Below, in pieces: positions 4,171 to 20,625 of a stretch of DNA of 64,000 nucleotides; the stretch's first letter is position 1; every line of letters starts with the position of its first letter. The position numbers and the translations under genes are program-made. The notes beneath the pieces were generated by a model. That model did not search any database. It was given only the letters and a program-made list of their open reading frames with translations, and had not been told where the DNA came from. The stretch lies in assembly GCA_014138725.1 (NCBI GenBank), contig JACJID010000003.1, positions 124,001-188,000 of the forward strand. Direction: 5' to 3'. Source of the DNA: Kutzneria viridogrisea (GTDB taxonomy: Bacteria > Actinomycetota > Actinomycetes > Mycobacteriales > Pseudonocardiaceae).

Positions 4171-5124
4171 TGGGGTTCCAGAAGTCGGCCCACGCATCCA
4201 ACCTGCGACGACAGGCACGGTCAACGGACACGGCGCGGTATTCGCCACGCTGGTCCGCCTGCTGCCCAAGGCGCTGCGAACGCACCGGCTGGTCACTCCG
4301 GAAACGGTCCTGCGCTGGCACCGACGCCTGGTAGCCGCGAAGTGGACCTACCCACACCGCCACGGACAACCACAACTGGGGTTACACAAGGACTCAGGGC
4401 GAGCTGCTCAAGCTCGGACACCAGGTCAGTGCCTCCACCATCCGGCGGATCCTGAAACGGGCGCGCATACCTCCCGCGCCGGACCGGAACACCGACACGA
4501 CCTGGCGGCAGTTCCTGCGCACGCAGGCCTCGACGAGGCTGGCATGCAATTTCTTCCCTGTCGACTGCGCGCTCACCCTCCAGCGGATCTCCGTGTTCTT
4601 CGTGCTGGAAGTCGGCAGCCGCTACGCCCACATCCTCGGCACGACCACCAATCCGGACGGCGGGCGGACCACCCAGCAGATCCGCAACCTCGTGATGGAC
4701 CTCGGTGACCGAGTCGACGAGTTCAGGTTTCTCATCCGCGACCGGGCTGGCCAGTTCGCGGCCTCATTCGACGCCGTCCTGACTGACGTGGCCATCAAGC
4801 CGGTCAAGATCCCACCACGTTGCCCACAGGCAAACTGCTACGCCGAACGCTTCGAACTCACCGCCAGATCCGAACTCACCGACCGCATGCTGATCCTGAG
4901 CCAGCGGCATCTGCACACCGTGCTCGCCGAATACGTCCAGCACTACAACGGTCGACGGCCGCACCGGTCCCGCAGGCTTCGACCACCCCGGCCGACCTAC
5001 CCAGTGGCGAACCTCAACACCCAGCGGATCAAGCGACAGCGGCTCCTCGGAGGCCTGATCAACGAATACGAACGCGCCGCGTAAAACTACTGGTCAGAGC
5101 CGGTGACTGACTTTTGGAACCCCA
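4171..5124. mobile_element. Decayed IS (copy A), DDE-integrase type, ends TGGGGTTCCA
   Basis: Both ends carry the same inverted sequence: TGGGGTTCC at 4171-4179 and GGAACCCCA at 5116-5124, and the match continues imperfectly inward (AAGTC near both ends). The 954-bp unit holds one decayed transposase. No target duplication is apparent. Confidence 0.7.
4212..5084 (+). pseudogene. Integrase-core IS transposase, frameshifted and internally deleted
   Basis: Residue blocks of one transposase lie in two frames. FATLVRLLPKALRTHRLVTP and [17 protein letters not shown] are in one; GYTRTQGELLKLGHQVSAS, RRILKRARIPPAPDR and VFFVLEVGSRYAHILGTTTN are in the next, continuing to LLGGLINEYERAA. The first is truncated at its N-terminus, and about 25 residues appear missing near 4370-4385, where the frame changes. 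The catalytic block FRFLIRDRAGQF is present. The family is the very common actinobacterial IS3/IS481-like integrase type. It is inactive as it stands. Confidence 0.8.
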
Positions 5125-5477
5125 CACGTCAGGTGGAGCTTGACCGTGGGCCAGGCTCGCAGGTCGTTCACCTCGCGGCGCAACACATCCCGTTCGGTGC
5201 GGGCCTCATCAACGTCTGCCTGTCGTCTCACACATCACGAGGACAGAACACCAACCCACTGAGGTCGAGCAGCTGCAGACGACGTGAGGTGGCGACGTGT
5301 ACCAGCGTGGACAGCTCGTGGAAGCCGCGCGCACGGACAGGTCGGGGTGGCAGGTTCGAGCCCCGTGACACTGCGGAGCGTTGTCCGAGCGAACGGTCCA
5401 CTCGGGCCGTCCCCGACCTGTGGACGGGGACGGTGATCCCGGTTGACGCTACGCCACGATGGCGCGTGCCTCTCACC
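5125..5477. other. Gene-free stretch
   Basis: No frame with a ribosome site or recognisable motif is present. It lies between the right IS end and the stop of the KAS III gene. Confidence 0.5.
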
Positions 5478-6500
5478 TCATCCGTGTCGCAAGCACAGGG
5501 ATCCCCATTGGAATCCCGCGCCGATGGCGGACATGACGTAGGTGTCGCCGCGCCGGACCAGCTGCTGGCTGAAGGACTGGTGCAGTGCGGTGAACACGCC
5601 GGCCGACCCGGTGTTGCCGAGTCGGTCGACGGTGATCGGTGCCCGGTGCCCGGGGACACCAAGCTTGTCCATCGTGGCGGTGATGATGTTCAGATTCGCT
5701 TGGTGGACAAAGAAGTGGGTGATCTCGCCGACCGGTAGCCCGGCCCGGTCGACCGCGTTGAGAATGCTTTCGGGCAGGCGCCTGGTCGCGGTGTCCCACA
5801 CGGCCCGGCCGTCCATCTTCAGAAAGTGTTTCCTGTCCGTGACCGTCTGTGCTGTGACGGGGAGCCGGGAACCGCCGGCCGGGATCTGCACGCCGTAGGA
5901 CAGCTCCGACCCGAAGTCCCAGCCGAGCAGGCCGGCACCGGGGGTCGACGATCTGGTCAGCACGACCGCTGCCGCCGCGTCACCGAAGAACACCCGCGTG
6001 GTGCGCTCCTGAGGATCCGTCACCCGTGAGGCACAGTCCGCGGCGATGACCAGGACCACCTCCGCCGCAGCGGTCTGCAACAGGTGCACGCCGAGCAGCA
6101 TCGCCTGAACGCCGTTGGCGCACGCGGCCTGGGTGATGTCGAGGGTGAGCGCCCGGTGCGCGCCCAACCCGTCCTTGACGATCAACGCGGTGGCGGGCAG
6201 CGGTTGGTCGTTGGTATAGGTGGCGACGATGATCACGTCGACGTCCTCGGCGGTCAGCCCGGCCGCGGTCAGCGCGGATCGCGCCGCGGATCCGCACATG
6301 TCCGAGGTGGCCTGGTCGGGTGCCAGCCAGCGACGCTCGCGGATGCCTGTCCTGCTGACGATCCACTCGTCTGAGGTGTCCACCATCTCGGCGAGCTGGT
6401 GGTTGGTCACGGTCGCAGCGGGCAGGTGCAGCCCGGTACCGGCGACCGTGACGGGCACGGACAGGCCCGAGCCGGCCAGGCGGTCGATCAGCGCGGTCAC
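5478..6500 (-). CDS. 3-oxoacyl-ACP synthase III (KAS III/FabH-like)
   Basis: This 340-residue thiolase-fold condensing enzyme of the KAS III family has all three catalytic residues: Cys127 in ITQAACANGVQA, His266 in FFVHQANLNI and Asn296 in RLGNTGSAGV. The early TSDEWIVSRTGIRERR block is diagnostic of FabH-type enzymes. KAS III enzymes condense an acyl-CoA starter with malonyl-ACP, and many actinomycete homologues instead make ester or amide bonds in secondary metabolism. No ACP, ketoreductase or acyltransferase of fatty-acid synthesis lies near, so a housekeeping role is unlikely. Its start overlaps the stop of the upstream GNAT-ThiF gene by four bases (ATGA), implying a dedicated two-gene cassette. 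Confidence 0.93.
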   Translation of the reverse strand: MTALIDRLAGSGLSVPVTVAGTGLHLPAATVTNHQLAEMVDTSDEWIVSRTGIRERRWLAPDQATSDMCGSAARSALTAAGLTAEDVDVIIVATYTNDQPLPATALIVKDGLGAHRALTLDITQAACANGVQAMLLGVHLLQTAAAEVVLVIAADCASRVTDPQERTTRVFFGDAAAAVVLTRSSTPGAGLLGWDFGSELSYGVQIPAGGSRLPVTAQTVTDRKHFLKMDGRAVWDTATRRLPESILNAVDRAGLPVGEITHFFVHQANLNIITATMDKLGVPGHRAPITVDRLGNTGSAGVFTALHQSFSQQLVRRGDTYVMSAIGAGFQWGSLCLRHG

Positions 6501-8386
6501 CGGGCGCTCCCGGCTGCCGTGTTGCGTTCCGGCCTGAGTTGCAGTTCCAGGTCGGTGTAGAAACGGCCAGACCCGCAGGGCAGACCGAGCAGGATGCGGC
6601 GGGCCGCTTCACCGGTCAGCGCACCGCCCAGAGCGACACCTGAGGCCAGCTGCGGCCAACTGCTCAGGGTGCGGCCGATCTGTCCGAAGGACGCGGCGAG
6701 TTCCGGGCTGATCCGGTCCGCGTCGACCATGGCCAGGATCAGGTTGACCCTGTCCTCGCGGCTCAGCTCCAGCATGTCCACGGACTTCACGTCGCCGAGC
6801 AGCCCGTGCAGCAGGGGCCGGTCGGGCTCGTGGTCGAATCTTTCGATGTCGAGCATGCCTCGGTCGTTGCAGTCCATCACGACTGGGATGCCCAGCTCAC
6901 GCGCGTGTTCCCTGGCCGCGATCTTCACCCACGGCGTGTCGCACTCCTCAACGAGCAGGTCGATCGGCCCGTTGCCGCCGGTGAAGAAGTCCGCGATGTT
7001 GTGCTCGGTCAGGCCGTCCCGGTAGATCTCGATGTCCAGGTACGGATCGATCTCGAACATTTGCCGGGCGGAGATCACCGCCTTGTTCACGCCCAGGTGG
7101 TGCACGCCCGCGCGCAGCCGGTTGAGGTTGGACAGGCTGAACTCGTCGAAGTCGGCGAGCTTGTACGCGCCGCCGATGCCCTCCAGCGCGAAGGTGACGG
7201 CGGCGCTGTTGCCGACCGACAGCCCGATGATCCCGATCGTGTTGCCCAGCAGACGGCGCTGTTCAGGGCGTTCGATCTTGCCGCGGTTGCGGTCGGTGCG
7301 TACCAAGCGGAACTCCTCGCGTGGCAGCACGTGCACGAGCCGCTGCGACCACGGGTACCAGGCCCAGGTGCCGTACTCCCACGCGTCGAGCCCGGCCAGT
7401 TGGTCGTTCTTCTTGCGCTGGATCTCAATCGGGTCGGTACAGGCCGGTTCACGGCTGCGGACCAGTTCGGTGAGCTGCTCGTCGATCGTGTCGTGGACCT
7501 CGCGCACGTCACCGGAGGCCAGCAGCGCGGTCAGCGCGTCGACATCGGACGTCCGGCGGGGCTCGAACAGCACCGGCTGCCACACGCCGCGGTCGGCGCA
7601 GTCCGCGTTGGCGAGGCCCACCGGGGCAGGGCGGCCCGACGACAAGTCGGACACCAGCCGCGCGTGGCCCGCGGCGGCGATGGCGGGGAACTCCTCACGA
7701 AGCTGGTCGACGAGTTCGGCGTACTGGCCCGCGCCGTCGGCGACGCGGTGGAACATCACCACCACGTCCTCGGTGTACTGCTCGACGTAGGCGCGGGTGC
7801 CCGGCATGCTGCGGAAGCCGAACCTTTCATGGAAGCGGTCCTGACCGTCCCTGGTGCCTGAGGTGCCGATCATCGCCTTCGCGCCGAGATGGTGTGCCGC
7901 CGCGATCGCCAGCCCGTTCAGGTACAGACCCAGCCCCAGTTTGCGAGCCCGGTGCTCGACAACGAGTCTGCTGTGCTCGAACGCGTCCCCGACCGCGACG
8001 CCCTCGGACCGCAGCAGTTCCTCGTATCGCGATGCGCCCAGGTAGGCGCGGGACTGGAAAAGGTCGCCGGTCGCCGGCGTGGACAGCCTGATGTAGCCCA
8101 GTGGTGGCCCGTCCGGCTCCCGCCGGGCGATGAAGTGCCAGGCGCCGAAATCCAGGTTCTGGTCGTCGAGGTGTGTGCCGTCGGTACGCGCGAAGGCCGG
8201 TCGGCGGCCGTGGTCGAAAAGGATCCGTGCCCTGAGTTCGCGCATCGACTCAAGCAGGGCCGGGTCACCGTTGCGGTCGCACGACGCGAGATAGGCCGTG
8301 ACGTGCCACTGCGGCGTTCCGACTAATTGCTGCCCTATCTGCTGTGACATCGATTCCCCGGTGCCATAGTGGTTGGTGTCCGTCAC
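6497..8386 (-). CDS. Two-domain protein: N-acyl-amino-acid-synthase-like GNAT + ThiF/MoeB E1-like domain
   Basis: A 629-residue protein. Residues of about 25-215 look like a GNAT/autoinducer-synthase fold of the N-acyl amino acid synthase (FeeM) type (GAWHFIARREPDG, FEHSRLVVEHRARKLGLGLY, RFHERFGFRSMPGTRAYVEQ). Residues of about 370-620 are a ThiF/HesA/MoeB adenylating domain, with the nucleotide loop GIIGLSVGNSAAV (385-397) and LADFDEFSLSNLNRL (410-424), where the Asp and Arg match E1 catalytic positions. The zinc-binding CxxC pairs of MoeB/ThiF are not seen. The order resembles the mycobacterial Rv1355c/MoeY-like family as I remember it, but without a nitroreductase-like C-terminus. GTG at 8386 with AAGG upstream is the likely start; ATG 36 bases downstream is possible. 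It is coupled to the KAS III gene. Confidence 0.82.
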   Translation of the reverse strand: MTDTNHYGTGESMSQQIGQQLVGTPQWHVTAYLASCDRNGDPALLESMRELRARILFDHGRRPAFARTDGTHLDDQNLDFGAWHFIARREPDGPPLGYIRLSTPATGDLFQSRAYLGASRYEELLRSEGVAVGDAFEHSRLVVEHRARKLGLGLYLNGLAIAAAHHLGAKAMIGTSGTRDGQDRFHERFGFRSMPGTRAYVEQYTEDVVVMFHRVADGAGQYAELVDQLREEFPAIAAAGHARLVSDLSSGRPAPVGLANADCADRGVWQPVLFEPRRTSDVDALTALLASGDVREVHDTIDEQLTELVRSREPACTDPIEIQRKKNDQLAGLDAWEYGTWAWYPWSQRLVHVLPREEFRLVRTDRNRGKIERPEQRRLLGNTIGIIGLSVGNSAAVTFALEGIGGAYKLADFDEFSLSNLNRLRAGVHHLGVNKAVISARQMFEIDPYLDIEIYRDGLTEHNIADFFTGGNGPIDLLVEECDTPWVKIAAREHARELGIPVVMDCNDRGMLDIERFDHEPDRPLLHGLLGDVKSVDMLELSREDRVNLILAMVDADRISPELAASFGQIGRTLSSWPQLASGVALGGALTGEAARRILLGLPCGSGRFYTDLELQLRPERNTAAGSAR

Positions 8387-9136
8387 GGATCGCCTTTTCT
8401 GATGATGCGATCGCTCGCCGGAAGGTTCTCAGGGGTAGCGCGAACCAACCGATCGAGCGACAGGAGGTTCCGGTGGCCTGTTGAAATCACAGTCCGAATC
8501 GGGTCGACCGGAAGGGTAGCAGCAGTTGAACCGCACTACCCAAAAAAGGCTGGATGGAGGTTGGTCTTTCACTCGCACGGGCAAGAAAGTGCACCAATTC
8601 CCGACTTGATCAACTCTTGGTTGCGTCAATGTCAGGCAGAAGCGATGATGATCACTCGAACGGGTACTCGATCGAATGTGATGCATGCCGCACGAGTTAC
8701 TGCTCGTCACGGTGATTGCGTCCACAACCAGCGAGGCACGTGATGTGTGGTTGTCCATCACGGTCGCATGTGGACATGACGGACGACACGCGAAGCGAGA
8801 TGGCAGCGTGTGGGCCGGGTTGTGATCATCCGATGACCTGATGACCATCACTGGTGGTTGCGCCGCTGCAACCGTCGGATCGCTCGACCGTCCGACAAGA
8901 TCGCCGGTTTACGCCGCTCGCCATTCGGCATGTGGAACGCTCTGTCATCAGTCCTGCCCGTTACTGTTTGGCGTGTCAGGGAGCGACGCTCTGACCTGCG
9001 ACATGACATTCCCTTTGGGAAACAAGGGGTGCGTGGCCCGTTCAGTGGCTCTCTGGGGTGTGCGGCCAGCCGTCGCTTTCTCGATGATCATGTCAAGGTA
9101 TGCGTCGACGAAGAACTCCATCAATTTCAGTCCGCA
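8387..9136. other. Long upstream region, no gene supported
   Basis: About 750 bases with lower GC than the neighbours lie upstream of the GNAT-ThiF/KAS III cassette and presumably hold its promoter. Short frames have no motif. One minus-strand stretch directly after the TnsA fragment reads without a recognisable family. Confidence 0.45.
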
Positions 9137-9803: not shown

Positions 9804-11080
<1,277 letters not shown>

Positions 11081-11736: not shown

Positions 11737-12677
11737 CTGAACCTTTTTCATCCTGCGGCGCGCTCGCGGTCCTGTAGGACGTGAATGGCCTTGGCCAGGC
11801 GGCCGGCGCGGTGCGGGCTGCACCGTAGCTTGCGGAGCACGCGCCAGGTCTTGAGCTGAGCGTTGGCCCGTTCGCCGGGTCCACGCAGGCGGGCGTGGGC
11901 ACGGTTGGCGTCTTTCTGGGACTCGGGTTTGTTGCGGCCTTTGTGCGGGGTGCGGACTTGTTGGCCGGTCTGGTCGTATCCGTGGTAGCCCTTGTCGCCC
12001 AGCGCGATCAGGTCGGCATCGCGCAGCGCGGCCAGGCTATTCCAGATCCGGGCGGCGGCGGTGTCATGCGTGCTGCCGGACAACTGGCCGGACACCCACA
12101 GGATCGTGCCGTCCAGGGAGGTGATTACCTGCAGGTTCACTCCGTGCCTGCGGTGCTTGCCCGAGTAGAAGGGCCGGTCTGCTGCGACGCGGTCGATGGG
12201 GATCAGCGTGCCGTCGATGATCACGTAGTCCATGCCCTCGCGGGTGGCCTTCGCGGTGCCGCCCGCAGCTTCGGCGCCCGCTGGGCACGCAGTTCGACGG
12301 TCTCGTTGACATACCGCCAGCACGTCGCGGTCGACACCGCGAACCCAGCGCCGACCTCGGCGAACGGCTCACCCTTGCGCAGATACACCAGCACCAGCAG
12401 CACCTGCTGCCCGGGGTTGAGCCTGCGCCATACCGAGCCGAGTCGCTTGCGGTGCGCGCGGATGAGGTCGGACACGAAGGTCAGGGTCTGATGTGACAAC
12501 GGCAGCGCGGCACCGTAGAACAGCATGCGAAGCCTTCGGTGGTACGGACTGATCTTGGTCGACAGCCCTCCTACCGGAGGCTTCATCCGTTGTCACGCTG
12601 GCACTCCGGCGATCCTCAGTTCGTGATCTACATCCCGTGCCCACCAACACATCCAGGCCAAGATGAAAAAGGTTCAG
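11737..12677. mobile_element. IS5-type element with TIRs and TGA target duplication
   Basis: The ends are CTGAACCTTTTTCATC (11737-11752) and its exact reverse complement (12662-12677), a 16-bp perfect terminal inverted repeat. TGA flanks both sides (11734-11736 and 12678-12680) as a 3-bp target duplication. The 941-bp unit carries one transposase on the minus strand. Confidence 0.88.
11748..12526 (-). pseudogene. IS5-family transposase (HTH + DDE_Tnp_4), one frameshift
   Basis: The N-terminal part starts MLFYGAALPLSHQTL and has the HTH block GFAVSTATCWRYVNETVEL. The C-terminal part, in another frame, has the DDE_Tnp_4-like YVIIDGTLIPIDRV, DLIALGDKGYHGY and RGPGERANAQLKTWRVLRKL blocks. The frames meet near 12250, where one base seems missing from a GC-rich run. 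The site does not look like a classical slippery heptamer, so decay (or a sequence error) is more likely than programmed frameshifting. Confidence 0.8.
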
Positions 12678-13054
12678 TGAAATTCCTGATCCACGACCGC
12701 GACGCGAAGTTCCCCGCCCTCATCGACGAGATCCTCGCCGACGCCGGCATCCAGACCGTCCTCACCGGCATCCGCGTCCCCAGAATGAACTCCATCATGG
12801 AGCGCTGGGTACAAAGCTGCCGCCACGAGCTTCTGGACCGAACTCTCATCTGGAACGAGCACCACCTGCGCCACGCCCTGCGCGAGTACGAGAAGTTCTA
12901 CAACTCCCATCGCGCCAACCCGGCCAAGCGTCAGGCAGCTCCACTGCGCCCGGTGCCAGCGCCCATCACCGATCCAGACCGAATCGCCCACCTGAACATA
13001 CGCCGACACGACCGACTCGGCGGCGTCCTCCACGAATACCTGCATGCCGCCTGA
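12678..13054 (+). pseudogene. DDE-integrase IS transposase C-terminal fragment
   Basis: Starting right at the IS5 boundary, the frame encodes VKFLIHDRDAKFPALIDEIL, then RVPRMNSIMERWVQSCRHEL and LREYEKFYNSHR, ending LGGVLHEYLHAA-stop. These are the second Asp and the Glu regions of an integrase-core transposase of the same broad type as copies A-C but a different group. The 5' two-thirds are missing. Confidence 0.8.
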
Positions 13055-13531: not shown

Positions 13532-16500
13532 CTACTCCCCGCCGTAGACATCGATACGAATTGACGTGTCAGGGTTAATACGGCCGTCGTTGATCCTTAC
13601 TTGGAGTTCGTCCCAGCGGTGATGACCTCCAAGAATCGTCCCGTTACGTGAGACGACAATTCCGTCTCCCTCTGCGGCATTGTTGATCCCGTGCAAAAGT
13701 TCGTCGTTGCCCAGTTCTTCGTGGTACCACTGCGATGCTGGATCCCGAGTCGACTGTCCCTCGGTGTACCTCTTAGCGAGATCGCCAGCCCTCTCGTAAC
13801 GTGTCGACCAACAGCCGGTGTTGTGGACCAGGACCGGGGTGTCCCCAGCCAGCACATAGTACGTGTGTACGCCGTCGATGGTGAGGTTGTAGGTGCGGAT
13901 GGTTGTGGCGTAACGGCGTAGGGAGGTGATTGTAACGTGGCCGTTTCCTGGGGTGTCGAGCTGCTGCCCGACCTTCAGGTCTCCCGCATCTGTCCATGTG
14001 TGAGTGGTGGTGTCCCAGAACAGGTGGTGCGTGGTCGAGGTGATCGTTCGGGGGCCGTCAGCGGTAGCAAGGGTGACATCGGTGAAGTCATGGTCGGTGT
14101 CGGTAATGTGAACGGCAGTGACGGTGTGCCGTTGCACCGTCGGGCTGTCGGGTTCGGCGTTGCTGATCTGGTCACCGACCTTGACCTGGTCGATCGGCTT
14201 GTTCGTGCCGTCGGCCATCAAGACCGGCGTGTCACCCGCGAAGCTGTTCGGCCCAGCGCAACCGAGCTCGCCCCTCAAGAACCCGCCTCCGACCGCCAGC
14301 GTGACCGCTTCGCTGACCAGGGTGTTCACCGTCGTGCTGACCCTGGCCTCAGTCGCGCATTGCTGAAGGTGGTCGATGCAGTACATCGCGGCTATCCGCT
14401 TCGCGCCCTCGACATCGTCAGGGTGCTCAAGCAGATAGTCATACGCCTCCTGACAGCCCCTCCGCCCGAAACACGCATTCGTACCCGCACCGCGCCCGTC
14501 TCCCACCGGGGCGGTCCAGTAGTCGCCACTGCCATCACCCGCGTAGTGGTAGAGCTGGGTTTGCAGCCTGCCGTTGTCGGTGGTAGCAGGTGAATGCTGG
14601 TCGATCCAGTTCTGGTCCCGCGCCTGCCGCGATCGCTGCCGCTCACCGGCACGTTCGCTGGTCCACCAGTTGTTCCTCTCCTCCGCCGTCGGCGGCGGGT
14701 CACCAAGGATGCCACCACAGCCGACGTTGTCGGGGCCGCAGTTCACCAGCAACCCCGTCGGGTCGCTGAGTGTGGTCGGGTTGTCGTTCGCGTAGGTGTA
14801 ACCGTTGAGTTGGCCGGGACGGGCCGGATCAAGCACTGGGTCGACAGAGATGAACCGACCGATCATCGGGTCGTAGTTTCGGGCACCAATCTCGGTCAGG
14901 CCGCTGGTCTGGTCCACCGGCTTGTTCAGGAAGCCATGAGTGTCCGGCCAGGTCCCGACGCCGGATCCGAGCGGGTTGCCGTAAGGGTCGAACGCGCGGC
15001 GAGTGACCTCACCGGTCTCGGGCTGGTAGGCGATTTGGTTGGTGCCGTGGGAATCACCGGCCAGGACGGTCGGGTTGGCCCCACCGACGCGCATCGCGAT
15101 GGTGTTGCCGCCGAAGCTGTAGTAGCGGGTGCCGGTGACCGTCGCGAGCGTGGCGTTGTAGGTCAACTCCTCGCCGGGCAGGAACAGCGTCGTGCTGCCC
15201 TTGTCGTGGCGGATCAGCAGGTTGCCGTCGGCGTCGTAGACATACGTGCTGGTGCCGTTGCTGGTCTGGTCGGATGCCAACCTGTTTTCCTGGTCCCAGC
15301 TCAAGGTCTGCCGGTCCGCGACCAGGTTGCGGGTGCTGGTGTTACCGGCCGCGTCGTAGCCGTAGCTGGTGGCGGTGTTCCCGCCTGGGCCGCTGGTGGC
15401 GGTCGAGGTCAGGGTGTGTGCCTGGGGGTTACCCGGTGCCGGGTAGGTGTAGGTCGTGGTGGTGTCGCCACTGGCTCCGGGCAGGGCGTGGCGGACCTGG
15501 GTGGCGCGCAGTCCGCTGGGCTGGAAGCTCCAGGAGGTCCAGTACGGGGTGATGCCCCCGACGTTGGTGCTGCCCGCGGCGGTGGAGGGTGGGGCAGCGC
15601 ATTTGTCGGTGGCTGTCCATGCCTGGTTGAGGCGATCCAGCGCGTCGTAGCCGAAGCACTGGGTCTGGGTAGCCGCCCCGGGCGGGCCTTGCACGTCGGT
15701 GCTGGAGGTCAGGTTGCCCGCTGGGTCGTAGGTGTAGGAGGTGTCGTCGATCTGCGGTGGCGCCTGTTTGCCCGACAGGGTGACGTCCGTGACCCGCCGG
15801 GTCTGCTTGTCGTGGTCGTAGGACAACCAGCCGTTCCCGCCGACCGTGGCGAACTGGGCGATTTCACCGTAGGGGGTGTAGATCGCGCCGGAGGCATAGG
15901 AGTTGTAGCCGAGCGCCCCCTTGGGCTTGCCCAATGCGTCGTAGGAGGTGACGATCTGCTCCGGTGACAGGCCGCCGCCGCTCGCGGGCTGCACGACATC
16001 GGGCAGGCCGGTCGTGGTGTAGGACGTCGAGGTGGTGTAGTCGCCGGCCAGTCCGGTCTCGCTGGCGGGGATGCGGAGGATGGTGCCGTTGGGCAGGCCC
16101 ATGCCGTCATAGCCGGTGACCCCGGACAGGTAGTTGCCGCCAGGGGTGTAGCGGGTGGAGTAGCTCAACTTGCCGGTCTGGACGGTGTCGTACACCCAGG
16201 AGGCCAGCTCCGGGCCGGTGATCGATCCGGCGTGCTCCTCGAGTTTGCGGCCCAGCTCGTCATACTTGAAGGCCAGCGTCTGGCCACGGTTGTCCGTTGT
16301 GGATGTCAACTGGCCGGCGTCGTCATAGCCGTAGGTCGTGCTGCCCGCGTCCGGGTCGCTCTGGGTCCGCCTGCGGCCCAGCAGGTCGTAGGTGTAGGTC
16401 CACTTGTTACCCTCGGCGTCGGTGATCTGGTCCTGCTGTCCGAGCGGGGTGTAGTGGTACAGCGTCGACTGGATGGCGTTCCCAGTGATGGTGTTGCCCG

Positions 16501-19500
16501 AGATCGTGGGCGGGGTCGTGTACTGGCGCAGCTCGGTGACCTTGCCCCGGCTGTCGGTCAGCGTCGTGCTGGTGACACCGCCGGGCGGCGGGATGGTGGT
16601 GGTGCGGTCGCCACCATAGACGGTCTGGGTGGCCCACGTCGCGGTCAGCCCGTTGTAGGCGGTGGCCTTCACCGGCCGCCCGTCGCCGTCGAAGGTGGTG
16701 ACCGTGCGGTCGTTGACGTCGGCGTCTGCCACCGAGATCAACGTCGTCCCCGGCGCGCCATCGGTGTGGTAGCGGTTGTTGGTGCGTACCACCCAGCCGT
16801 GCGAGTCGTAGACGGTGTCCGATCCGATCCGACCGCCGCCCTCGGCGTCTGATTGGGTTTGCAGCACATGGCCGAGACCGTCGTAGAGCGTGACGCTGGT
16901 CGTGTAGTTCGTCCCGTTCCCGTAGTCGATCAGGGTCTTGCTGGTGACCGCCGAGGCACCGTCACGCCGCAGGAGATAGCTGTAGGTACTGGAGGGCTGT
17001 TGGTTGCCGCTCTTGCTGTGACCTGGTAGCCACATCGCGGTGAGCCGGCCCAGGGCGTCGTAGCTGGCATCGGTGGCGTGTCCGGCGACGTCGGTGATGT
17101 CCAGGGTGGAACCGCGGCCGGGATCGACGAGGGTCTTGGTGGTCTGTTTCTTCGGGTTGGTAGTGACGATCTGGGTGACCACTCCACCGTCGGTCGGGGT
17201 GTAAGCCGTGGTCGACGTCCGGTTGAGCGCGTCGGTGCGTGACAGCGGACGACCGGACCCGTCAAAGGTCGCCGTGCCGGTCGTGATGAAGGTCAGTATG
17301 CCGTTGTCGTTCTTGCTGGAACTGTCGGTGCGGGTCGGATCACCGGCTCCCGGTACCACGCCGAGGTTGGTCTGGTTGTCGTAGAAGGTGCGGACATCGG
17401 ACAGGATCGGCGACGGCGTCGTGCCCGGTGTGGGGCAGCTCTGTTGGGAGGTGATGACCTCCGCGACCCGGTTACGGATCCACGAGGTCGTATTGTCAGC
17501 GTAGCTGGTGGTCGTGCACACATCCGGTACGCCGTCACCGGAGGAGGTCTGCTGGGTCACCCGGCCAGCGCTGTCATAAGCGGTGGTTGCCGAGGTCGTG
17601 CGGGCACCGCCGGCGGCCAGCGCCGTCAGCGTCCGAGACTTGGTGGTGGCGACGATGGTCGCGGTGAGCGCGGGCAATCCATCGCGGGCTCGTGAGGCGG
17701 TGGAGGCGACCGTGCCGACATCGGTGATGGCAGTGGAGACCTGTGCTGGACTGTCGCCGTCGAAGGTCGTCACCTCGCGAGGCGTGCCGGCGAATTGGTT
17801 GCTGTCGGGGACGGACTCCCCAAGCGAGTCCGCGATGGTGACCGGTGTCCGGATCTTCCCGCCGGGCAGGGTGTCACCATCCATGCCCCGGTAGTAGGTG
17901 GTCCGGGTCAGTGTCTGCCGGTCAGCCACACCGTTGCTGCTGTGCTGGGGGTCGCCGGTGCGGACTTCGACCTGTTGGTAGCCGCGGAACTGGCCGTAGG
18001 TGCGATTGGCGGGCTTGGTCACCTCGTTGTCGTCGAAGTGCCACGCCGGGGATCCCAGGTACCGGTAGGTGGTCTTCTGCGTGGGCGAGAGCGCGTTGGC
18101 GTCCTGGACGTCGACCTCGGTGGTGACATACATGTGGAAGTAGTCCAGCACCGGGTCGGTGTTGTAGGGCAACACCCACCGGACTGGGAAACACCGCATC
18201 GTGTCGTTGGCCGGATCAGCGGGGACAGTGGTCTGGGTGCATTCCGGATCGCTGTAGGAGATCGAGATGACCTGGCCGGTCTCGGTGGTGATGGTGGCCA
18301 GCCGCCATCGGATCATGGCCGGCTGGTTGTTGTAGTTGACCACCCGGTTGTCGTGCACCTGTCCGGTGAACGTCATCGCCGGCAGGGCGATCGAGGTTCC
18401 GTCCGGGCTGTATCCGGTGTGGGTGATCGAGGCCAGCCACATGGAAGCGTCGATCGCGGCGTAGAACTGGTGGCCCAGTTCGTAGGTGTCGACCTTGGTG
18501 TAGCCGGTGCCGGTGTAGTACTGGGTGGTGATGGTGGTCAGCCGTTTGGTCGACCAGATCGACGGTGCGTGATTGTCACAACTGGCGCCCTGGACGCAGT
18601 GCTGGTCCTGTGGGGTGTCCGGCCAGGAGGCGGCGTTGTTGGTGGTGAACTGCGACGGGTCGCACGTGATCGTCCCCGAGGGCAGGCAGCGCTCGGAGAC
18701 AGTGAAGACCACCTGATCCGCGGCGGCGCTGGCATAGACGGTGCCGTTCTCATCGCGTAGGCCGTAGTCGATCCGGGACAGGTAGCCGCCCCGGGTGTAG
18801 GCCACACCGGTGGTGGAGTTGTTGGCACCGTAGTAGTTGGTTTCCGGGGTGTAGTAGTACATCGTGGCGTTGCCATGGGGGTCCTCGACGTAGTCCAGGT
18901 TCCACCGCCACGCCTGCGCACAGGACGACGCGGCGAACCCCGCCGGGTTGTTACACGGGTCACCGGGGTGGGCCCCGTAGACGGGCTCGGTCCAGGTCGA
19001 GTTCGTGGTCGCTTGGTCGCGATGGCCGGGTCCGCTGTTGCGGCCGAAGAAGTACTGAGTCCCGTTCGGCGTGGTGATCTTCCAGTACTCGCCGCCCAGG
19101 GCGCCGTTTGCGCTGCCGGTGAGGAGTTCGACCCGGTCACCTGTGTCCGTGGAGGTGTGCCAGGTCTTGCTGAGGTCATCGAGCACCAGGGAGACCGAGT
19201 GGCCGTCGAGGTTCATTGTCAGGATCTGACCGGACCAGCAGGCGTCGTAGACCTTCGGTGCGGTACCGGCCGGGTCGTCCGCGCATGAGCGGTAGGTGCG
19301 TTCGATGTAGCCGGGTGAGTAGTCCCAGCCCTCACCGATCCACGAGGTCTGGTTGTTGGTCGATGCGGTATGTCCATCCACTCGGGATGAGTCGTAGGAC
19401 AGCGCGACCTTCGGCGTGGCGTCGCCGCCTGCCGCGGACGGTGGGGTGGCGATGGGGTAGGACCAGGTAAACGCGCCCGAGCTGCCGCCCACTGACCAAC

Positions 19501-20332
19501 TCCCCGATGGGGCCAGGGAACTGGCGGTGAAGCTTCCGTTGGGGCCAGCCGATCCCGCTGTGGCAGCCAGTACCAACGGGGTCGTCGAGGCATGGATGGC
19601 CTTGGATTGCGCTGCCGTGAACGTCACCGGAGCGGAGACGATCCCGGCCTTGGAGTCGTTGGTCGATGAGCCGATCGGGGTCTGGGTGTGGCACTCCGGC
19701 TTGTCCGGTGTGGACAATGCGCAGGCTGGCAACTGGACCAGGTGCAGGCGAGTGCCGAAGTCGGCGCCGACGGCGTTGCGGAAGCCGGAGTAGTCCACGC
19801 CCACCGAAGCCGTGTGCCCAGTATCCTCCGGGGTGACGGCGAACAGCACACCGGCGACTCCGGCCTTGACCGCGGTGTTGTGGTCGGCGAGGTGGACGTG
19901 GAACTTCGGCGGCGTCGTGGCAACGGTGTCCGGCTTTGCCTTACCCGTGGTCTCGGAGCGGATCAGGATCGGCAGGGTGCCCGCACGATGCGGAGCATCG
20001 GCTTGCGCGTTGGGCGTAGCTCCCACTGGCCTGCCCAGGGTGAGGTCGGCGTCGCCCGGCGCCGGCCATGACGTCGCCGTTGGCTGACCGGTAGGCGGGC
20101 CCTGAGCGGCCTTGGTTGGTTTCAGCGGCACAGTCGTGTGCGGGATGGGTTTCTCGATCGACACTGGTGGCCGGTTGTCCGCGCTGGCCTGGGCGGCGGG
20201 CACCACGACCGCGCTGAGCATTGAGGCGATCAGCGCACCGACGACGGTGACCAGTACCGGCGTCCGGCGTCGCCGGGCCAGCACCCAATGAAATCTATAC
20301 GCAGGCGTAACTGTCCCACCGACGCGGCTCAT
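13532..20332 (-). CDS. Secreted Rhs/YD-repeat polymorphic toxin with Hint domain and variable tip
   Basis: A 2266-residue protein. ATG at 20332 follows an AGGGGGGA ribosome site; a 36-residue longer frame is rejected. The N-terminus has basic residues then a hydrophobic segment (VLVTVVGALIASMLSAVVV) and PAAQASA, a Sec signal. A SpvB-like/TcdB-like N-terminal region (GAFTWSYPIATPPSAAGG, VALSYDSSRVDG) leads into dozens of YD repeats such as YGYDDAGQLTSTTDNRGQTL. The Rhs core end reads RAFDPYGNPLGS and YDPMIGRFISVDPV. A Hint pre-toxin domain (about 2025-2172) starts NSFAGDTPVLMADG and ends HTYYVLAGDTPVLVHN, so autoproteolysis is likely. The last about 94 residues are the variable tip, with IVVSRNGTILGGHHRWDEL resembling ParB-type DGHHR motifs. 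The toxic activity is not established. Confidence 0.92.
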   Translation of the reverse strand: MSRVGGTVTPAYRFHWVLARRRRTPVLVTVVGALIASMLSAVVVPAAQASADNRPPVSIEKPIPHTTVPLKPTKAAQGPPTGQPTATSWPAPGDADLTLGRPVGATPNAQADAPHRAGTLPILIRSETTGKAKPDTVATTPPKFHVHLADHNTAVKAGVAGVLFAVTPEDTGHTASVGVDYSGFRNAVGADFGTRLHLVQLPACALSTPDKPECHTQTPIGSSTNDSKAGIVSAPVTFTAAQSKAIHASTTPLVLAATAGSAGPNGSFTASSLAPSGSWSVGGSSGAFTWSYPIATPPSAAGGDATPKVALSYDSSRVDGHTASTNNQTSWIGEGWDYSPGYIERTYRSCADDPAGTAPKVYDACWSGQILTMNLDGHSVSLVLDDLSKTWHTSTDTGDRVELLTGSANGALGGEYWKITTPNGTQYFFGRNSGPGHRDQATTNSTWTEPVYGAHPGDPCNNPAGFAASSCAQAWRWNLDYVEDPHGNATMYYYTPETNYYGANNSTTGVAYTRGGYLSRIDYGLRDENGTVYASAAADQVVFTVSERCLPSGTITCDPSQFTTNNAASWPDTPQDQHCVQGASCDNHAPSIWSTKRLTTITTQYYTGTGYTKVDTYELGHQFYAAIDASMWLASITHTGYSPDGTSIALPAMTFTGQVHDNRVVNYNNQPAMIRWRLATITTETGQVISISYSDPECTQTTVPADPANDTMRCFPVRWVLPYNTDPVLDYFHMYVTTEVDVQDANALSPTQKTTYRYLGSPAWHFDDNEVTKPANRTYGQFRGYQQVEVRTGDPQHSSNGVADRQTLTRTTYYRGMDGDTLPGGKIRTPVTIADSLGESVPDSNQFAGTPREVTTFDGDSPAQVSTAITDVGTVASTASRARDGLPALTATIVATTKSRTLTALAAGGARTTSATTAYDSAGRVTQQTSSGDGVPDVCTTTSYADNTTSWIRNRVAEVITSQQSCPTPGTTPSPILSDVRTFYDNQTNLGVVPGAGDPTRTDSSSKNDNGILTFITTGTATFDGSGRPLSRTDALNRTSTTAYTPTDGGVVTQIVTTNPKKQTTKTLVDPGRGSTLDITDVAGHATDASYDALGRLTAMWLPGHSKSGNQQPSSTYSYLLRRDGASAVTSKTLIDYGNGTNYTTSVTLYDGLGHVLQTQSDAEGGGRIGSDTVYDSHGWVVRTNNRYHTDGAPGTTLISVADADVNDRTVTTFDGDGRPVKATAYNGLTATWATQTVYGGDRTTTIPPPGGVTSTTLTDSRGKVTELRQYTTPPTISGNTITGNAIQSTLYHYTPLGQQDQITDAEGNKWTYTYDLLGRRRTQSDPDAGSTTYGYDDAGQLTSTTDNRGQTLAFKYDELGRKLEEHAGSITGPELASWVYDTVQTGKLSYSTRYTPGGNYLSGVTGYDGMGLPNGTILRIPASETGLAGDYTTSTSYTTTGLPDVVQPASGGGLSPEQIVTSYDALGKPKGALGYNSYASGAIYTPYGEIAQFATVGGNGWLSYDHDKQTRRVTDVTLSGKQAPPQIDDTSYTYDPAGNLTSSTDVQGPPGAATQTQCFGYDALDRLNQAWTATDKCAAPPSTAAGSTNVGGITPYWTSWSFQPSGLRATQVRHALPGASGDTTTTYTYPAPGNPQAHTLTSTATSGPGGNTATSYGYDAAGNTSTRNLVADRQTLSWDQENRLASDQTSNGTSTYVYDADGNLLIRHDKGSTTLFLPGEELTYNATLATVTGTRYYSFGGNTIAMRVGGANPTVLAGDSHGTNQIAYQPETGEVTRRAFDPYGNPLGSGVGTWPDTHGFLNKPVDQTSGLTEIGARNYDPMIGRFISVDPVLDPARPGQLNGYTYANDNPTTLSDPTGLLVNCGPDNVGCGGILGDPPPTAEERNNWWTSERAGERQRSRQARDQNWIDQHSPATTDNGRLQTQLYHYAGDGSGDYWTAPVGDGRGAGTNACFGRRGCQEAYDYLLEHPDDVEGAKRIAAMYCIDHLQQCATEARVSTTVNTLVSEAVTLAVGGGFLRGELGCAGPNSFAGDTPVLMADGTNKPIDQVKVGDQISNAEPDSPTVQRHTVTAVHITDTDHDFTDVTLATADGPRTITSTTHHLFWDTTTHTWTDAGDLKVGQQLDTPGNGHVTITSLRRYATTIRTYNLTIDGVHTYYVLAGDTPVLVHNTGCWSTRYERAGDLAKRYTEGQSTRDPASQWYHEELGNDELLHGINNAAEGDGIVVSRNGTILGGHHRWDELQVRINDGRINPDTSIRIDVYGGE

Positions 20333-20625
20333 CGCCGTCCCCCCTCGGAAAACCCGAACCCGTAGCGTGCGAACCGTACACACGTGCCACTCACCGGGGA
20401 AGACGTTGACCCATTTACAGCAATCCCACGCCAGATACATGATCTGGGTGACAACTCGCGTGTTTCGTCGGCTACATCCGAATAGCTGTACCAGGTGCGG
20501 CTAAACGGTCGACAGAGGCCACGCAGTTTCATTGCTTGCTTGCTGGCATCTGGTCGGGCGGCTAACGTCCCGAGCCGCCGTTCAACTGGCCATCGGCCAC
20601 ACATCACGGGGGAGGCGGCACCAGT
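20333..20625. promoter_or_regulatory. Divergent promoter region of the Rhs and LamG/SGNH genes
   Basis: A 293-base gap between two divergent genes, both starting with strong GGAGG/AGGGGG ribosome sites, must carry both promoters and suggests joint control. No operator was recognised. Confidence 0.5.

Follow-up and report, generated by a model that had tools for sequence, protein, structure and literature searches.

The window analysed here is a 64,000-nucleotide stretch of the Kutzneria viridogrisea genome (contig JACJID010000003.1), and its element of interest is a cassette of two overlapping genes, one encoding a beta-ketoacyl-acyl carrier protein (ACP) synthase III (KAS III) and the other a fusion of a GNAT N-acyltransferase with a ThiF-type, E1-like domain. 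The cassette is a real, conserved system. Judged from the homology of its parts, it belongs with the N-acyl oxazolone pathways (OxzAB, TyzACB and TrzAS) as a derived relative that has no oxidase and bears KAS III in the oxidase's place. What is new is an oxazolone-type pathway form in which a ketosynthase replaces the oxidase; both core enzymes are known. The cassette points to a candidate small molecule so far undescribed, and the best explanation overall, to which we assign a probability of roughly 0.4, would be a 3-oxoacyl route to a 3-acyl tetramic acid, i.e., a short tetramate-type pathway without a nonribosomal peptide synthetase (NRPS).

The first descriptions of oxazolone lipids are recent, and what these lipids do is still an open question, according to the available text of the tryptazolone paper (PMC12856293). 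In many actinomycetes, the two core oxazolone enzymes are fused and paired with a ketosynthase, and different KAS III lineages joined the same fusion.

The fusion and KAS III form a conserved pair

Both genes are genuine, overlap each other and keep their active-site residues, which confirms the two-gene observation of the first-pass annotation, an earlier reading of the window. The four-base overlap (GTGA) that it had described was borne out, and so were the intact active sites, Cys127, His266 and Asn296 in the KAS III and the E1 loop in the fusion (Table 1). Its idea of a coupled pair of biosynthetic enzymes, with no further biosynthetic gene adjoining the pair within the window, is also supported.

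Loci are given L-numbers and genomes G-numbers below, G000 being the window's own genome (10.2 Mb). We searched 390 genomes of the window's family and found the fusion in 31, of which 30 have it over most of its length and G409 has it in pieces. In 26 of these 31 genomes, a KAS III gene lies next to the fusion; the remaining five make up a single Amycolatopsis clade. When the same genomes were searched the other way round, a KAS III was present at E ≤ 1e-90 in 29, and in 26 of these (68–100% identical) it lies beside the fusion; in the remaining three (G069, G173 and G230; KAS III 52–55% identical), no fusion was found at E ≤ 1e-40.

Additional fusions were obtained from named genomes (27 loci), from a sample of the class, where 9 of 394 genomes matched at 1e-100 and two held full-length fusions besides the window's, and from a Streptomycetaceae sample, where 11 of 375 genomes matched at 1e-130. 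When rows with identical last 150 residues were dropped, 53 distinct fusion loci from four actinomycete families remained, many of them with only ~1.5 kb of flank. The first-pass annotation had named fusion homologues mostly lacking KAS III as the outcome that would count against it; the check came out the other way, with KAS III next to the fusion in 46 of the 53 loci. The window's own kind of KAS III, here called lineage A, stands alone at 39 loci and together with another KAS III and an ACP at three; four loci have another KAS III with an ACP and no lineage A, and seven (L059, L062–L065, L099 and L147) have no KAS III in the stretch examined. Not all of the 46 are intact: L058, L079/L108 and L100 have a broken fusion, and L097 has a short KAS III of 196 residues.

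Furthermore, at each of the 22 lineage A junctions examined besides the window's, the KAS III frame begins with an ATG or GTG in a four-base overlap with the TGA of the fusion; one of these junctions, in the record of L153, is borne by a linear plasmid of Streptomyces. Kutzneria buriramensis (L084) carries the same cassette. When the 64-kb window was compared with 19.9 kb around the K. buriramensis cassette (L034), DNA similarity covered positions 5472–8709 at 90% and then stopped; outside this range, there was only one 90-base match, 54 kb away. Therefore, the surroundings of the cassette differ even within the genus. No further gene accompanied the pair repeatedly when unrelated surroundings were compared (22 loci; no search aimed at ubiquitin-like genes was made).

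The fusion joins the two core enzymes of oxazolone-type loci

The C-terminal half of the fusion matches the NCBIfam Rv1355c family (NF005901) with an E value of 2.4e-126, over model positions 7–343 of 722 only. Its score of 422.8 bits stays below the curated cut-off of 476 because the oxidase half is absent, whereas ThiF-oxidase proteins from three other genomes reach 745–980 bits on the same model, above the cut-off. The fusion also matches Pfam ThiF (E 3.8e-12), and the E1 loop is present in its ThiF half together with the Asp, Asn, Arg and Lys residues. Of 41 rows that bear KAS III, 39 agree with the window at all 16 E1 sites, the exceptions being L058 and L097, and so do a further 10 of 10 rows. 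Judged from the motif itself rather than from an alignment, LADFDEFSLSNLNR is the probable counterpart of the Asp217 region tested in M. smegmatis TrzS (PMC12856293).

The first-pass annotation had noted a ThiF domain without zinc-binding Cys pairs, and indeed no CxxC was found in the fusion. Since the zinc site is lacking, a sulfur-carrier or MoeB role of the ThiF half was rejected; no sulfur-carrier partner stood out in the neighbour clustering of 22 loci, no search aimed at such partners having been made. A paulomycin-like system, in which a KAS III gene lies beside a ThiF-like gene, was likewise set aside as different, as the enzyme there is a MoeZ-like sulfur enzyme according to the available part of the report (PMC4425429).

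The N-terminal domain of the window's fusion, scanned alone, matches Pfam GNAT weakly (E 0.0022; 18.7 bits, below the cut-off of 20.7). Among 20 scanned N-terminal domains, the window's included, 17 matched Acetyltransf_1 at E ≤ 0.1 (best 3e-5) and four matched FeeM, the N-acyl amino acid synthase family PF21926, at the same threshold (best 5.3e-5), the window's own matches being below the Pfam cut-offs. FeeM is a stand-alone enzyme, unlike the acyltransferase borne by the fusion. In L080, a ThiF-oxidase gene has a free acyltransferase encoded next to it, to which the window's domain is 28–29% identical; hhalign of the N-terminal half against that protein gave a probability of 99 and an E value of 2.6e-18. 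Relatives of the L080 acyltransferase (38–39%) adjoin ThiF-oxidase genes in L119 and L121; the window's domain matches the L119 protein at 30%, and the L121 protein not at E ≤ 1e-4. Taken together, the evidence favours a GNAT-like N-acyltransferase with a putative, weak likeness to FeeM, and both the GNAT and FeeM matches among relatives and the homology to the L080 protein support the earlier description of this half as like an N-acyl amino acid synthase.

Each half of the fusion has its homologue in one of the two enzymes of oxazolone-type (ThiF-oxidase) loci, so that the fusion combines the acyltransferase and the cyclase of such a pathway in a single polypeptide. In the available text of the tryptazolone paper, TrzS (Rv1355c) and the N-acyltransferase TrzA make N-acyl tryptazolones, and M. 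smegmatis TrzS accumulates a saturated cyclic intermediate under limited oxygen (PMC12856293); oxazolones are acid-labile according to the same paper. TyzACB is described as a similar N-acyl oxazolone-type pathway in the accessible part of the tyrazolone paper (PMC10404671), and stieleriacine loci, in the sections available, hold sets of N-acyl amino acid synthase (NAS), ThiF and nitroreductase, again with an oxidase-type gene (PMC12479983). The nearest characterised relatives of the fusion are reported to act on small N-acyl amino acids (PMC12856293, PMC10404671).

The cassette shares with TrzA-TrzS (Rv1356c-Rv1355c) a GNAT N-acyltransferase and an Rv1355c-type ThiF cyclase with the E1 motif kept, the likeness to TrzA being drawn through the L080-type acyltransferase and not from a direct comparison. 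The cassette differs in that acyltransferase and ThiF are one protein, with no flavin oxidase half, and in its coupling to KAS III, at some loci along with an ACP. The acyltransferase and the ThiF cyclase also recur in TyzA-TyzC-TyzB (Rv2336, Rv2337c and Rv2338c; PMC10404671) and in OxzAB of Pseudoalteromonas rubra, known here through PMC12856293 and PMC10404671 only; in the available parts of these papers, both systems contain an oxidase and have no KAS III named for them, the opposite of the window's pair. The earlier statement that the fusion is not a standard pathway enzyme needs correcting in one respect: its two halves have precedent in the enzymes of oxazolone-type loci, a link that had been missed.

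As the oxazolone link explains both halves of the fusion, the missing oxidase becomes the notable point. A flavin-dependent oxidase is absent from the fusion and from the locus. A single oxidase-domain query, used at E ≤ 1e-8 against 15 genomes (12 with the pair and three controls), gave no match in G000 or in eight of the 11 other pair-bearing genomes; the other three (G155, G189 and G219) gave oxidase-like matches of 30–32%, unlinked to the pair.

Different KAS III lineages occur at the fusion

The window KAS III passes the NCBIfam model for beta-ketoacyl-ACP synthase 3 (NF006829; E 3.9e-91, 305.4 bits, cut-off 249) and misses the narrower fabH model TIGR00747 (262.7 vs. 292.1 bits). Its best solved-structure match is 8vd9, listed as beta-ketoacyl-[acyl-carrier-protein] synthase III 1. 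Cys127, His266 and Asn296 are invariant across 17 aligned KAS III proteins, and the Cys-His-Asn triad is complete in a wider set of 51 rows with one exception, L114, a distant KAS III-like protein encoded at another place in the window's genome. Identity to the window KAS III is 61–100% inside lineage A and 28–33% to three other KAS III-like proteins of G000. The protein is thus like FabH-type KAS III in family and triad, but the window's forms make up a separate lineage that is coupled to the fusion. CerJ-like KAS III acyltransferases, as described in the available part of PMC4425429, have a Cys-His-Asp triad, whereas the window KAS III keeps Asn296 as the third residue.

Two further kinds of KAS III, B1 and B2, were found at the fusion, each with an ACP and both in Streptomycetaceae. 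At the B1 loci (L100, L105, L116/L131 and L097, the last with the short protein), the order is fusion, ACP, B1, and lineage A is absent; at the B2 loci (L098, L109 and L152), B2 and its ACP lie beside a fusion that still has lineage A. B1 and B2 are 36–39% alike, either is 33–37% alike to lineage A, and their ACPs are 24–30% alike. Because B1 and B2 are hardly closer to each other than to lineage A and their ACPs are so dissimilar, they look like two separate recruitments of a KAS III with an ACP; a single "lineage B" gained once with its ACP was ruled out by these identities and by the KAS III tree. The ACPs of L097, L098, L109 and L131 match PF00550, and those of L100, L105 and L152 were recognised from translation or similarity. 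In the ThiF tree, which does not include L152, the B loci branch inside Streptomycetaceae; L094 and L096, the outer members of that group, carry lineage A alone. L147, which has no KAS III, has a FabF-type synthase further down on the same strand, past a divergent open reading frame (ORF) that is TetR-like by eye.

The nearest relative of the cassette KAS III without a fusion is one of the two KAS III genes in the clusters of L123 and L124, which also contain an AfsA-type ORF (PF03756 in L123), a cytochrome P450-like ORF, a zinc dehydrogenase and an ACP. L123, where an AfsA-domain protein is accompanied by an ACP and by two KAS III proteins, one of them related to the cassette KAS III, offers a parallel to the 3-oxoacyl route proposed below. 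AfsA uses 3-oxoacyl donors.

The ThiF half decays after loss of KAS III

In a ThiF tree with a midpoint root, the fusion clade is monophyletic (99/93) and its sister consists of stand-alone ThiF proteins (join 94/92), both within the Rv1355c-type ThiF-oxidase proteins. Stand-alone Rv1355c-type ThiF genes in L127 (1648–3569), L128 (8420–10194) and L134 (4917–6715) overlap by four bases with a different GNAT gene (Acetyltransf_3 in L127, an annotated GNAT in L134), and in L037 a P450 gene (PF00067) precedes the ThiF gene.

The five Amycolatopsis fusions without KAS III (L059 and L062–L065) form a clade (100/97) nested among KAS III-bearing fusions, and no KAS III of the lineage's kind was found elsewhere in the five genomes at E ≤ 1e-90. 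These lineages, having lost KAS III, provide a natural control. Asp414 and other E1 residues are lost in four of the five fusions, and L059, the fifth, has two changes; L059 and L065 keep an intact acyltransferase motif, whereas the other three are altered at 2–3 of its 17 sites. The ratio of the nonsynonymous divergence (dN) of ThiF to that of the acyltransferase was 1.12–2.98 in 12 pairs involving these loci and 0.17–1.05 in 14 chosen KAS III-bearing pairs. From the recruitments and replacements of KAS III and the decay of ThiF after its loss, a ketosynthase and ThiF seem to be partners in a single pathway.

Possible chemistry of the cassette

Could E1-like activation drive carbon-carbon ring closure without an NRPS? 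In the 3-oxoacyl route, KAS III would condense an acyl-coenzyme A with malonyl-ACP to a 3-oxoacyl thioester, the malonyl carrier probably being a dedicated ACP in some Streptomycetaceae and a housekeeping ACP elsewhere. The GNAT domain would then move the 3-oxoacyl group onto the nitrogen of an amino acid, and the ThiF domain would adenylate the carboxylate. The activated N-(3-oxoacyl) amino acid would close on itself, most simply through its active methylene carbon to give a 3-acyl tetramic acid, with closure through oxygen to an oxazolone as the competing course. According to the available part of the TAS1 study, activated N-acetoacetyl-isoleucine (a thioester) cyclises spontaneously to a tetramic acid (PMC4640141). 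TAS1, the fungal tenuazonic acid synthetase, resembles the cassette in the passage from an acetoacetyl-amino acid to a tetramic acid and in having a ketosynthase domain, an analogy of chemistry; however, it is an NRPS-polyketide synthase megaenzyme, whereas the cassette is without an NRPS, and there is no homology of architecture (PMC4640141, same part).

In more general terms, an N-acylated amino acid may gain a carbon-carbon bond through the joint action of KAS III and the E1-like enzyme, in an NRPS-free route of two to four genes that leads to tetramic acids or alpha-acylamino ketones; oxazolone chemistry would then have been turned to a new use by swapping the oxidase for a ketosynthase. 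We would place this only slightly short of even odds. An acylated small molecule, as the first-pass annotation had suggested, is the likely product.

Several points weigh against the 3-oxoacyl route. We infer its steps, including substrate, product and order, from the activities of relatives, and the known relatives close the ring through oxygen to give oxazolones, as far as their reports are available (PMC12856293, PMC10404671). An ACP profile search found an ACP near seven of the 53 fusions, all of them in Streptomycetaceae, and near no other, many flanks being ~1.5 kb. The sister position of the stand-alone ThiF proteins suggests that loss of the oxidase may have preceded both the fusion of the acyltransferase and the arrival of KAS III. 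Since the acyltransferase also loosens in three of the five KAS III-less loci, decay is no proof of step order; the dN pairs share branches and hence are not independent, and L099 (a Nocardia metagenome-assembled genome) and L147 have intact motifs though no KAS III lies in the stretch examined. Finally, all three oxidase controls were matched, but the query itself came from one of them (G042) and the match in another (G313) reached only 30%, which means that the search could overlook a distant oxidase.

Could the ThiF domain act before KAS III? The saturated cyclic intermediate of M. smegmatis TrzS at limited oxygen, in the available account (PMC12856293), would suit two such readings. The activated N-acyl amino acid, as an acyl-adenylate (acyl-AMP) or a saturated azlactone, might be passed to Cys127 of KAS III, extended with malonyl-ACP to a 4-acylamino-3-oxo thioester and cyclised. 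That KAS III keeps a condensing-enzyme triad and that an ACP is present at seven loci would agree with this order, and so would the faster loosening of ThiF than of the acyltransferase after KAS III loss, which is expected if KAS III uses the ThiF product; however, this co-decay fits the 3-oxoacyl route as well. To our knowledge, no KAS III takes an azlactone or an acyl-AMP, and we regard this order as possible yet doubtful. It is quite unlikely, on the other hand, that the cassette performs an enzymatic Dakin-West reaction, in which the C4 carbanion of a ThiF-made azlactone attacks the acyl-Cys of KAS III, and hydrolysis and loss of CO2 give an alpha-acylamino ketone. Without an oxidase, the saturated azlactone would be the ThiF product, as for TrzS at low oxygen; such an azlactone has an acidic C4-H, and the reaction needs no ACP, in agreement with the 46 of 53 loci where none was found. 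Against it, the two recruitments of a KAS III with an ACP in Streptomycetaceae point to malonyl- or acyl-ACP chemistry, and our literature search gave no enzyme precedent.

KAS III might also do no more than supply an unusual acyl chain to a plain N-acyl oxazolone pathway, with the oxidase dispensable or coming from elsewhere. In keeping with this, both halves have homologues in ThiF-oxidase loci and the Rv1355c family, and three of the 12 pair-bearing genomes have unlinked oxidase-like matches of 30–32%, but the oxidase is missing from the other nine by the same search, and a mere change of chain should not make ThiF decay once KAS III is lost; for these reasons, we judge it unlikely. The first-pass annotation had offered the modification of a protein terminus beside a small molecule; this, or a ubiquitin-like pathway in which the ThiF domain serves as the E1, is not supported and seems very improbable, given that the closest family acts on small N-acyl amino acids in the available text (PMC12856293) and that no third gene recurs beside the pair. 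What speaks for it are weak matches to E1-E2 systems in PADLOC, which cover the ThiF fold only (best E 1.8e-7); an anti-phage E1-E2 system was rejected on the same fold-level matches.

No description of the fusion-KAS III pair was found in the titles and opening abstracts of the literature searched, subscription papers being mostly outside that search. In their available text, the tryptazolone paper makes no mention of ketosynthase, ketoacyl or KAS (PMC12856293), the tyrazolone paper none of KAS or FabH (PMC10404671), and a review of ThiF-like enzymes none of oxazolone, acyltransferase or ketosynthase (PMC12250964). As the cassette comprises two genes in ~3 kb, it is easily expressed whole, and an NRPS-free, E1-driven carbon-carbon ring closure is directly testable.

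Features and surroundings of the cassette

Table 1. Coordinates of the cassette and its parts in the window.
Feature	Position	Strand	Length or basis
KAS III gene (beta-ketoacyl-ACP synthase III, lineage A)	5478..6500	-	340 amino acids
Fusion gene, GNAT N-acyltransferase + Rv1355c/TrzS-type ThiF	6497..8386	-	629 amino acids
GNAT N-acyltransferase domain (residues ~26-232), predicted	7691..8311	-	Homology to free acyltransferase of L080; GNAT/FeeM Pfam matches among relatives
Rv1355c-type ThiF part (residues ~262-625)	6512..7603	-	Family match, tree
E1 nucleotide loop GLSVG (residues 388-392)	7211..7225	-	Alignment
LADFDEFSLSNLNR motif with Asp412, Asp414, Asn420 and Arg423	7118..7159	-	Alignment
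Stop/start overlap GTGA of fusion and KAS III, 4 bases	6497..6500	-	22/22 other lineage A junctions alike
Catalytic Cys127 codon of KAS III	6120..6122	-	Alignment
Catalytic His266 codon of KAS III	5703..5705	-	Alignment
Catalytic Asn296 codon of KAS III	5613..5615	-	Alignment
Stretch upstream of fusion, conserved in Kutzneria buriramensis; possible control region	8387..8709		DNA similarity

EF-hand calcium-binding ORFs lie within ~1 kb of the cassette in L036 (7293–7838) and L105 (6112–6738), both recognised by Pfam, and in L097 (6040–6591, by motif only); no tie of these ORFs to the cassette could be shown. Near the window's cassette, there are integrase-core ORFs (PF13683) at window positions 4593–5084 and 12539–13054, the second just below the cut-off, and further ORFs that are transposase-like by eye at 9871–10865 and 11748–12323. 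An ORF of 2302 residues at 13532–20440 was named RHS/YD-repeat-like by eye.

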